A stretch of DNA of 64,000 nt from the NCBI GenBank assembly GCA_015055835.1, contig SVHJ01000002.1, positions 1-64,000 on the forward strand. Reading direction: 5' to 3'. The position numbers and the translations under genes were made by a program. The DNA comes from Clostridiales bacterium (GTDB lineage Bacteria; Bacillota; Clostridia; Christensenellales; Borkfalkiaceae). Shown here piece by piece: positions 53,967-56,582 of the stretch (within the stretch, counting starts at the first letter, position 1; each line of letters opens with the position of its first letter). The notes under the pieces were generated by a model. It was not told where the DNA came from, did no database searches, and saw only the letters and a program-made list of their open reading frames with translations.

Positions 53967-55796
53967 ATGATTACTTCAAAAGAATTAAGGGAAAAATGGA
54001 TAAAGTTTTATGAAGAACGTGGCCACGTTAATATCGGCGCAGTTTCACTAATCGGTGACGGCACGACGGGCGTTATGTTTAACGTTGCAGGTATGCAACC
54101 ACTTATGCCTTACTTACTTGGTAAAAAACACCCTTCTGGCAGTACAAGACTTTGTAACGTTCAAGGTTGTGTTAGAACGGTTGATATTGATTCAGTTGGC
54201 GACGCTACTCACTTTACTTTTTTTGAAATGATGGGTAACTGGAGTCTTGGCGACTACTTTAAAAAGGAAAAAACGAGATGGTCTTTTGAACTTTTAACCG
54301 AAGTTTTTGGTTTTGAAAAGGAAAAAATTTGTTCTACCGTTTTTGAAGGCAACGCGCAAGTTCCAAGAGATAACGAAACTGCTGAACTATTAAAAGGTTT
54401 AGGAATAAAGGAAGAAAACATTTTCTATTTAGATAAATCTAACAACTGGTGGGAACTTGAAGGTACGGTTGGCACTCCTTGTGGTCCTGACAACGAATGG
54501 TTCTATCCAAGACACGACAATCCTTGCTCACCTACTTGTGATATTAACTGCGATTGTGGTAGATACGTTGAAATTGGTAACGACGTTTATATGCAATACA
54601 AAAAGTTAGAAGGTGGAAAGTACACCGAACTTGAAAACAAAAACGTTGACACAGGTTTTGGTCTTGATAGACTTCTTCTTTTCTTAAACAATTTAGACGA
54701 CGGTTATAAAACCGACCTATTTATCGATTCAATTAACCTTTTACAAGAAGTTTCAGGTAAAGATTATGAAACTGATGAAGTTGCAAGAAAGGCTATGCGT
54801 ATTATCGCCGACCACACAAGAACTTCAGTTATGTTAATCGGGGATAGAAACGGCATTGTACCATCTAACACGGGCGCAGGTTATATTTTAAGAAGACTTA
54901 TGCGTAGAGCAATAAGATACTGCAAAAACTTAAACGTTGATGCAACCGTTATTTTAGAAGTTGCTAAAATCTTTATTGAAAAAATTTATAACGACGCATA
55001 CCCACTACTTGTTGAAAAAGAAGGTTATATTTTAGACGAAATTCTAAAAGAAATTAACAAATTTGAAGCAACTTTAGCATCTGGTATGAAGGAATTTGAC
55101 AAGTGCATTATCGGTATGGAAAGAAAGAATGCGTTTATGGCGCAAAAAGACCCAAATTATATTCCTGAAACGGTAATTAGTGGTAAACAAGCGTTTAGAT
55201 TATACGATACTTTCGGTTTCCCACTTGAACTTACTAAAGAACTTGCTGAAGAAAAGGGTTTAACCGTTGATGAAGTTGGCTTTAACGACGCATTTAAAGA
55301 ACATCAAGAAAAGTCAAAAGCACAAGCAGTTTCTGCTAAAGGTGGTTTAACTGAACAAACGGAGATTACGACAAACTACCATACAGCAACACACATTATG
55401 CTTGCAGGTCTTCGTAAAATGTTTGGTACTTCAACTGAACAAAAAGGTTCTAACATTACGGAAGAAAGACTTCGTTTTGACTTTAACTTAGACCACAAAA
55501 TGACGGCTGAAGAATTAAAAGAATTAGAAGATTTCGTTAACGACGTTATTGAAAGAAAAATTGACGTTGTTAAAACGGAAGAACCTTATAATAAGGCTGT
55601 TAGTGAGGGCGCTTACGGCGTATTTACTGCTGAAAGCGACGACCAAATCGTTTCTATCTACACTATTGACGGCGTTGATAAGCAAATTTGTGGTGGTCCA
55701 CACGCAAAAAATACTGGCGACCTTGGTAAATTTATCATTAAAAAGGAAGAAAGTTCATCTAGTGGAGTTAGAAGAATTAAAGCCGTTTTAAGATAA
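53967..55796 (+). CDS. alaS: alanyl-tRNA synthetase, compact form lacking the C-terminal domain
   Basis: Charges tRNA-Ala and clears mischarged Ser/Gly. The class II catalytic core includes GDATHFTFFEMMGNWSLGDY near residue 74 and GFGLDRLLLFL near 230. The editing domain has HTATH near 472 and CGGPHAKNTGDLG near 576. The protein ends at GVRRIKAVL, right after the editing domain. At 609 residues it lacks the coiled coil, DHHA1 and C-Ala parts that bring typical bacterial AlaRS to about 870. The core wording resembles compact AlaRS proteins I associate with reduced bacterial lineages; that comparison is from memory. Confidence 0.93.
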   Translation: MITSKELREKWIKFYEERGHVNIGAVSLIGDGTTGVMFNVAGMQPLMPYLLGKKHPSGSTRLCNVQGCVRTVDIDSVGDATHFTFFEMMGNWSLGDYFKKEKTRWSFELLTEVFGFEKEKICSTVFEGNAQVPRDNETAELLKGLGIKEENIFYLDKSNNWWELEGTVGTPCGPDNEWFYPRHDNPCSPTCDINCDCGRYVEIGNDVYMQYKKLEGGKYTELENKNVDTGFGLDRLLLFLNNLDDGYKTDLFIDSINLLQEVSGKDYETDEVARKAMRIIADHTRTSVMLIGDRNGIVPSNTGAGYILRRLMRRAIRYCKNLNVDATVILEVAKIFIEKIYNDAYPLLVEKEGYILDEILKEINKFEATLASGMKEFDKCIIGMERKNAFMAQKDPNYIPETVISGKQAFRLYDTFGFPLELTKELAEEKGLTVDEVGFNDAFKEHQEKSKAQAVSAKGGLTEQTEITTNYHTATHIMLAGLRKMFGTSTEQKGSNITEERLRFDFNLDHKMTAEELKELEDFVNDVIERKIDVVKTEEPYNKAVSEGAYGVFTAESDDQIVSIYTIDGVDKQICGGPHAKNTGDLGKFIIKKEESSSSGVRRIKAVLR

Positions 55797-55809: not shown

Positions 55810-55838
55810 TTGACAAATCAAAATAAAATAACTATACT
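55810..55838 (+). promoter_or_regulatory. promoter of tRNA-Arg(ACG)
   Basis: TTGACA (55810-55815), 17-nt spacer, TATACT (55833-55838), with the predicted start near 55845. Confidence 0.8.
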
Positions 55839-55873: not shown

Positions 55874-55950
55874 GCACCGTTAGCTAAGCTGGATATAGCG
55901 TTGGTCTACGGAACCAAAGGCCAGGGGTTCGAATCCCTTACGGTGCGCCA
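55874..55950 (+). tRNA. tRNA-Arg (ACG)
   Basis: A 77-nt tRNA with encoded CCA. The acceptor GCACCGT pairs with ACGGTGC, the anticodon loop CTACGGA carries ACG (read as ICG after deamination), and the T loop is GTTCGAATC. Its last 19 nt (55932-55950) recur downstream in the tandem units. Confidence 0.96.
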
Positions 55951-56149
55951 CAAAAAGCCGTTGACACTTTTGTGTCGATGGCTTTTTGCTTTGTGTGATG
56001 TTAGTGTAAGGGATTCGAACGAAAGCGTTAAGAAAACGGTAGACACCTACCGTTTTTAGTGGCTGACCGAAGTATTTTGCAAAGCATATGCTTGTCTTTT
56101 ATTTTTTTGCTTTGCAAAATACAAGAGCGCAATCCCTTACGGTGCGCCA
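55951..56149 (+). repeat. tRNA-Arg-anchored hairpin unit 1 (199 bp)
   Basis: Parts in order: a terminator-like hairpin ending GGCTTTTT (55952-55986), and an inverted T-arm copy AAGGGATTCGAACG (56008-56021). Then come a 10-bp hairpin AAAACGGTAG/CTACCGTTTT and a 15-bp hairpin GTATTTTGCAAAGCA/TGCTTTGCAAAATAC. A copy of the tRNA 3' end, AATCCCTTACGGTGCGCCA (56131-56149), closes the unit. The inverted and direct T-arm copies can pair with each other. No ORF of note. Confidence 0.85.
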
Positions 56150-56340
56150 CGAAAACACCTAATCCATTTTTATGGGTTGGGTGTTTTTGTTATGTGTATG
56201 AAAAGGGATTCGAACGGGTGGGTATCGGCAACTTACAACTTGTTTTTTTACTATAGTTGCCGACAAACAATTGATAATTGTTTGCCACCCCGGCGTGATA
56301 GTAAACAAAGTTTACGGAGCGAATCCCTTACGGTGCGCCA
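56150..56340 (+). repeat. tRNA-Arg-anchored hairpin unit 2 (191 bp), different core
   Basis: The order matches unit 1 but the inner sequence is unrelated. A terminator-like AAAACACC/GGTGTTTT hairpin comes first, then AAGGGATTCGAACG (56203-56216). Hairpins CGGCAACT/AGTTGCCG, CAAACAATT/AATTGTTTG and GTAAAC/GTTTAC lie inside a GGGTGG/CCACCC pair. CGAATCCCTTACGGTGCGCCA ends the unit, with the 19-nt tRNA-end copy at 56322-56340. Confidence 0.85.
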
Positions 56341-56538
56341 ACAAAAAGCCATTGACACTTTTGTGTTGATGGCTTTTTGCTTTGTGTAATATTAGTGTAA
56401 GGGATTCGAACGAGAACGTTAAGAAAACGGTAGACACCTACCGTTTTTAGTGGCTGACCGAAGTATTTTGCAAAGCATAGGCTTGTCTTTTGTTTTTTTG
56501 CTTTGCAAAATACAAGAGCGCAATCCCTTACGGTGCGC
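56341..56538 (+). repeat. tRNA-Arg-anchored hairpin unit 3 (198 bp), near copy of unit 1
   Basis: About 95% identical to unit 1 by eye (roughly nine substitutions). The two changes in the first hairpin keep it paired (G-T to A-T, G-C to G-T), and the 10-bp and 15-bp stems are unchanged. Other changes fall in loops or spacers. The tRNA-end copy is AATCCCTTACGGTGCGC (56522-56538) and lacks the final CCA. Confidence 0.85.
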
Positions 56539-56554
56539 ATAAAAATTTTAAACA

Positions 56555-56582
56555 AAAAAAGAACTTGTTTTCAAGTTCTTTT
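56555..56582. terminator. bidirectional terminator
   Basis: AAAAGAACTTG/CAAGTTCTTTT stem with a TTTT loop and A/T tracts, between the repeat array and the leftward XRE gene, whose stop codon it touches. Confidence 0.8.

Follow-up and report, generated by a model that had tools for sequence, protein, structure and literature searches.

Behind the tRNA-Arg(ACG) gene of the window (the whole stretch of DNA analysed, 64,000 nt long) stand three units of ~190-200 nt each, all built to one plan: a terminator hairpin, an inverted copy of the tRNA T-arm, a core of hairpins, and the tRNA 3′ end repeated in direct orientation. We take these, with a probability of about one half, to be integrative cassettes without genes that occupy tRNA ends and would be moved by a T-loop-specific recombinase acting in trans.

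The array behind tRNA-Arg(ACG)

ARAGORN places tRNA-Arg(ACG) at 55874-55950 on the plus strand, so that the first of the four copies of AATCCCTTACGGTGCGC, the tRNA 3′ end (at 55932, 56131, 56322, and 56522; spacings 199, 191, and 200), is the tRNA's own; the part duplicated by the units runs from the T-loop to the CCA (55932-55950). The inverted T-arm, AAGGGATTCGAACG, is found at 56008, 56203, and 56399. Unit 1 (55951-56149, plus strand) has a core of the family called type A below (covariance-model match 56008-56139) and consists of a terminator (55951-55988), the inverted T-arm (56006-56021), hairpins P2 (56033-56056) and P3 (56072-56122), and the tRNA-end copy (56131-56149). Unit 3 (56341-56540, plus strand), also type A (match 56399-56530), is 96% identical to it over 198 nt, with its terminator at 56342-56379, inverted T-arm at 56397-56412, hairpins at 56424-56447 and 56463-56513, and a tRNA-end copy starting at 56522. 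Unit 2 (56150-56340, plus strand) shares the plan of units 1 and 3 and has a different core, of type B (match 56203-56331), closed by GGGATTCG/CGAATCCC; its inverted T-arm lies at 56203-56216 and its tRNA-end copy at 56322-56340. An initial annotation of this DNA had described the four tRNA-end copies and their spacing, the plan of each interval, the near identity of units 1 and 3, and the separate core of unit 2; each of these points holds in the sequence, and the plan was found at other loci as well.

A scan called the intrinsic terminators of units 1 and 3; it gave no call in unit 2, where a terminator-like hairpin (~56151-56189) was seen by eye. Beyond the outermost tRNA-end copy, a final hairpin with T/A runs (56553-56582, not assigned to a strand) is presumably the original terminator of tRNA-Arg, shared with a convergent gene. 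The only plus-strand promoter-like site upstream of the array is that of the tRNA (TTGACA-17-TATACT, 55810-55838), and the plus-strand promoter scan found none inside the array; any RNA from the units would therefore need read-through. Just upstream of the tRNA, at 53967-55796, lies an alanyl-tRNA synthetase-like ORF of only 609 aa, from which the usual C-terminal part is seemingly absent.

Boundary, inverted arm, and cores across loci and genomes

The window comes from a metagenome-assembled genome (MAG; here G000) of 1.19 Mb, 96% complete. Searching this genome and its relatives, as the initial annotation had proposed, was productive: related units stand behind four more of its tRNA genes, Ser(GCT), Ser(TGA), Ser(CGA), and Leu(TAG), and in many other genomes, while ~20 further tRNA genes examined in G000 have none. 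Chance is excluded, because the identical architecture recurs behind these four tRNAs and behind tRNAs of many genomes. By blastn, 17 of 61 searched genomes match, counting G000 itself; the named type-A records are mostly Christensenella-like or Clostridia MAGs, many of gut and rumen origin. A type-A covariance model finds matches in 29 of 201 genomes of the family and, in an order-wide search, in 28 of 396 genomes from seven families, with up to eight units per genome. In all, ~76 distinct units were collected from Christensenellales-type MAGs, a set that may hold a few other kinds of repeat (e.g., the Pro repeats of locus L046). They follow ~18 tRNA genes, including those for Ser, Leu, Arg(ACG), Ala, Gln, Met, Pro, Thr, Val, Trp, and others, plus tmRNA, behind which type-A units also occur (L051, L055). 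Two side observations concern their surroundings. The right end of contig C28 and the left end of contig C1 of G000 (L002, L004) share ~110 bp of the Ser(TGA) unit, in which a truncated core of a different type comes after the type-A one, and these contigs probably join within it; in another genome (L043, G015:C116) a cas9-like ORF (identified by eye) has a type-A unit immediately upstream.

The units are gene-free, shorter than 300 nt, and all in one orientation, and their general plan is constant: the unit's own terminator straight after the CCA, a spacer, the inverted T-arm, the core, and a copy of the segment from T-loop to CCA. In 64 of 69 units the duplication begins at position 3-8 counted from the G of GTTC (GTTCRAN), that is, inside the T-loop or at its edge, irrespective of the core. 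An intact tRNA with a displaced 3′ fragment, the arrangement that defines tRNA islands, is present in these 64 of 69, and the shared T-loop boundary favors the earlier suggestion of non-autonomous elements that insert at the tRNA 3′ end and restore it. Besides the T-arm, no terminal sequence is common to the units.

The inverted T-arm follows the tRNA at which it stands. Scored against their own tRNAs the arms give 874; with tRNAs permuted, the score is 719 ± 10 (z ~16), with a maximum of 761 in 5000 permutations. The arm reads, for example, GATTCG with Arg, GATTTG with Ser, GACTTG with Leu, GAGTTG with the tmRNA of L055, and CTCGAAC with Val. At one locus (L038), behind Leu(TAG), the duplicated ends are of the TAG type and the inverted arm still belongs to the Leu(CAA) type. 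It looks as though insertion had duplicated the target end and the arm had yet to be corrected; this is the state expected soon after a move.

Several core families can be distinguished. Type A has conserved GAGCG, AGCGGCTGACCGAAG, and CAAGAGCG; type B has GGCGTGATAG ... CGGAGCG; type C is found behind Leu and Met; and there are several rarer families besides, among which types E, H, and J have a weak or absent inverted T-arm. One unit (L157) is a hybrid, type A in its 5′ half and type B in its 3′ half, and another (L266) has the 5′ half of A alone; as read from the sequence, the cores are modular. The conservation of loop sequences within a core family suggests a function beyond hitch-hiking.

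Within G000 the two parts of a unit also differ in their relationships. Between Arg unit 3 and the Ser(TGA) unit, identity is 98% in the core and 64% in the left part; between the Ser(TGA) and Ser(GCT) units it is 95% in the left part and 90% in the core. By this comparison, cores and left halves have different histories, i.e., have been exchanged between loci, which together with the A/B hybrid bears out the idea of exchangeable cores put forward initially. An array that is invariant among relatives, which would have spoken against exchange, was not what was seen: the congener G001 has no type-A unit by the covariance model, and its Arg(ACG) locus holds only the type-B cassette of unit 2, 98% identical and with a different terminator ahead of it. 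At Leu(TAG), the two tRNA-end/terminator pairs of G001 stand in the reverse of their order in G000. The A-B-A array of the window has a counterpart in an A-C-A array at Leu(CAA) (L131), and growth of such arrays by unequal crossing over is also likely.

An Rfam search of the window returned the tRNA only; with Rfam 15, the window and 16 further loci gave nothing beyond tRNA, tmRNA, and RNase P at the gathering score, and the matches below it were weak and at chance level. Identity with an intron or a known ribozyme was rejected for want of any Rfam match. A phage or plasmid origin was likewise rejected: in blastn against phages and plasmids the tRNA itself was the sole match, and no viral contig matched in searches with the A and B patterns.

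Proposed insertion at the T-loop and its alternatives

The stems of types A and B covary, none of 500 shuffles giving as strong a signal and slid controls also being far exceeded; compensatory stem changes, expected of a structured element (RNA or single-stranded DNA), are present in both types. In the P2 and P3 stems of type A, mismatches are G-T in 39 cases and A-C in 5 (binomial p 1e-7, which is only indicative, the sequences being related); the folding strand is therefore the tRNA-sense one. In 50 of 62 units that strand is the better folded of the two, an excess equal to that of terminators (51 of 62). To judge from these patterns, what counts is the tRNA-sense strand, in the form of either RNA or single-stranded DNA.

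In the mechanism proposed, insertion would come about through strand exchange within the T-loop, the recombinase acting in trans from a gene outside the cassette; the tyrosine-integrase type is most likely, because such enzymes are known to use T-loops. Each insertion would duplicate the part of the tRNA from T-loop to CCA, by which the tRNA would be kept whole and a terminator regained, and older cassettes with displaced tRNA ends would accumulate downstream. The machinery would recognise the folded tRNA-sense strand, either single-stranded DNA or read-through RNA, and the closing stem, P1, would probably be refitted to the local tRNA through palindrome correction or selection. Against the cassette reading, no mobile intermediate, no same-strain pair of empty and filled sites, and no recombinase was found; in addition, ordinary gene conversion could also give cores common to several loci, and unequal crossing over could also give A-B-A arrays. 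The conserved loops within each core family and the lack of a shared terminal sequence besides the T-arm count against it too.

Searches of the whole genome located no gene for a tyrosine or large serine recombinase, a reverse transcriptase, Cas1, or a Y1 transposase on the contig of the window, a result that extends the earlier observation that the window has no integrase. G000 has a single tyrosine recombinase, on another contig and near a LexA-like ORF (by eye), which looks like a housekeeping Xer; since the MAG is 96% complete, a recombinase gene may be missing from it. Large serine recombinases (LSRs) and the reverse transcriptase domain RVT_1 are absent from G000, G001, G014, G019, and G021, and Cas1 and Y1 from G000 and G001. 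An LSR as driver was suggested by two loci (L045, L066) and dropped, as several unit carriers are without one; reverse transcriptase, Cas1, and Y1 were rejected in the same role, the unit's own genome having none of them.

The main rival, raised in the initial annotation too and rather unlikely in itself, is that the units are structured RNAs within tRNA read-through transcripts, acting as 3′ regulatory or independent RNAs, in arrays that were duplicated, homogenised by gene conversion, and immobile. The strand preference, the excess of G-T over A-C, and the compensatory changes would all be expected of it, as would the terminator that stands after every unit's end. However, the core comes directly after a terminator and the only plus-strand promoter-like site is the tRNA's; nor does an RNA function account for one T-loop boundary across unrelated cores, or for congeners that differ in the presence of units.

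Another possibility, an improbable one, is that the units are debris of larger tRNA islands, of the tyrosine-integrase or LSR kind, whose left and right ends remain and whose middle was lost. Gene-bearing islands do occur at the same tRNAs, in G009, G104, G186, and G001, and an LSR family of the same bacterial family abuts tRNA ends in many genomes. But the cores are conserved and their stems covary across genera and families, unlike debris, and no island was found with a type-A or type-B core at its own end. The far ends of LSR islands have only ~GCAACCA in common with the tRNA, and these islands are therefore a different system in the same place.

At the tRNA-Met of G009 (L156, L169; G009:C2:1-22000) there are three defense-gene cassettes with units between them, carrying Mrr, PDC-S60, PDC-S01, type III R-M, OLD-like, HEC-05/GmrSD, and (by eye) DUF4062-like genes. 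All three terminate in the same ~70-bp site (..GAAAATAGTTCAATTAAGTTGGCGCTTGTGCAACCA); cassettes 1 and 2 are followed by small structured units, cassette 3 by a large serine recombinase gene. Gene cargo was also observed in tRNA-anchored arrays at L162 (G104:C9), L151 (G186:C29), and L158 (G166:C4), comprising D12 methylase/DpnII genes, RelA-like plus Panacea toxin-antitoxin genes, and a methylase/ATPase cluster. In several genomes (L188-L217) LSR genes lie tail-to-tail with the 3′ ends of tRNAs (Met, Arg, Lys, Ser, Asn, Ala), and this family seems to supply the tRNA with a new terminator. The Ser(GCT) gene of G001 (L218, G001:C4:6000-24000) carries a tyrosine-integrase island where G000 has a type-A unit. 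It was rejected as a source of the unit ends, its crossover apparently lying upstream of the T-arm, because both T-stem strands differ from those of G000; its far end was not found in ~54 kb downstream. Elsewhere in G000 (L014, contig C35), the end of an integrated element with excisionase-like and ArdA-like ORFs (by eye) adjoins the 3′ half of a tRNA-Arg, from the anticodon onward, behind which comes a small unit of a different type.

A further and very improbable alternative likens the units to integron cassettes: folded single strands in which stem P1 mimics the double-stranded T-arm, with the tRNA as an attI-like platform. P1 does recreate the T-arm duplex within one strand, and it is the only stem common to unrelated cores; the single orientation and the strand asymmetry also fit. 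Integron cassettes form arrays on one platform, in one orientation, each closed by a folded site, and the attC consensus boxes are RYYYAAC/GTTRRRY. Unlike them, the small units have no integron integrase, attC consensus, or reading frame: G000 encodes no integron integrase, only the apparent Xer, and no such boxes were seen in the P1 arms of A and B (read by eye). Their cores are moreover conserved within a family, as the variable parts of attC are not. A broader form, in which one recombinase of an integron-like system on T-arms inserts any folded cassette, coding or not, at a stem-matched tRNA serving as attI-like platform, so that the defense cargo of G009, G104, and G186 rides along, is improbable.

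Finally, an assembly artefact, or plain tandem duplication without further biology, is barely credible: two contigs of this MAG, C28 and C1, do end in near-identical units, and breaks at repeats are typical of assemblers, but the array of the window is internal to a contig of 101 kb, and dozens of other MAGs, from other samples, have this architecture too.

Relation to known systems and significance

Integrative cassettes, the reading we prefer, would have their nearest relatives among the islands and prophages of tRNA and tmRNA genes. The Islander work (PMC4383910) describes tRNA genomic islands as a restored gene with a displaced 3′ fragment, and phage Ms6 (PMC1762012) has its attB in a T-loop, where strand exchange has been proposed to take place. 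Like these, the units lie in target genes that are restored by carried sequence, a displaced 3′ fragment marks the far end, and the boundary is in the T-loop, as for Ms6. They differ in having neither an integrase nor other genes, in their size, under 200 nt, in the conserved folded core, in an inverted T-arm that tracks the local tRNA, and in forming tandem arrays of differing cores; an integrase gene, which tRNA islands contain, was found in no unit. The units would thus work like a tRNA island reduced to a folded core. The LSR islands of the same bacterial family (L169, L189, L190) use the same tRNAs and the same arrays and also bring a new tRNA terminator, but encode a recombinase and cargo, and their boundary is near the CCA, not in the T-loop.

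Short, non-coding, hairpin-rich elements are also known as REP/BIME and IS200/IS605-derived palindromic elements. The units resemble these in size, hairpins, and lack of coding, but are bound to tRNA ends and duplicate the target end; the earlier suggestion of REP/IS200-type elements fails on the absence of a Y1 transposase from G000 and G001. Casposons target tRNA 3′ ends and duplicate a target segment, as the units do; the units, however, have no genes or fixed terminal inverted repeats, and G000 and G001 are without Cas1. For retroelements and retrons, LSR elements, and known Rfam families, the defining feature is absent in each case. No description of such units was found in the open-licence PMC literature, and they look like miniature mobile elements of an undescribed type.

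If this is correct, gene-free folded cassettes of ~200 nt can use the insertion principle of tRNA genomic islands, and tRNA 3′ ends are able to host growing, exchanging arrays. With units occurring naturally in sets at many tRNAs, the recognised strand and stem pairs could be tested directly. If the units are RNAs instead, they would represent several new families of structured RNA, coupled to the termination of tRNAs. Since the same arrays take in anti-phage cassettes in relatives, the gathering of defense genes at tRNA hot spots may be partly explained.
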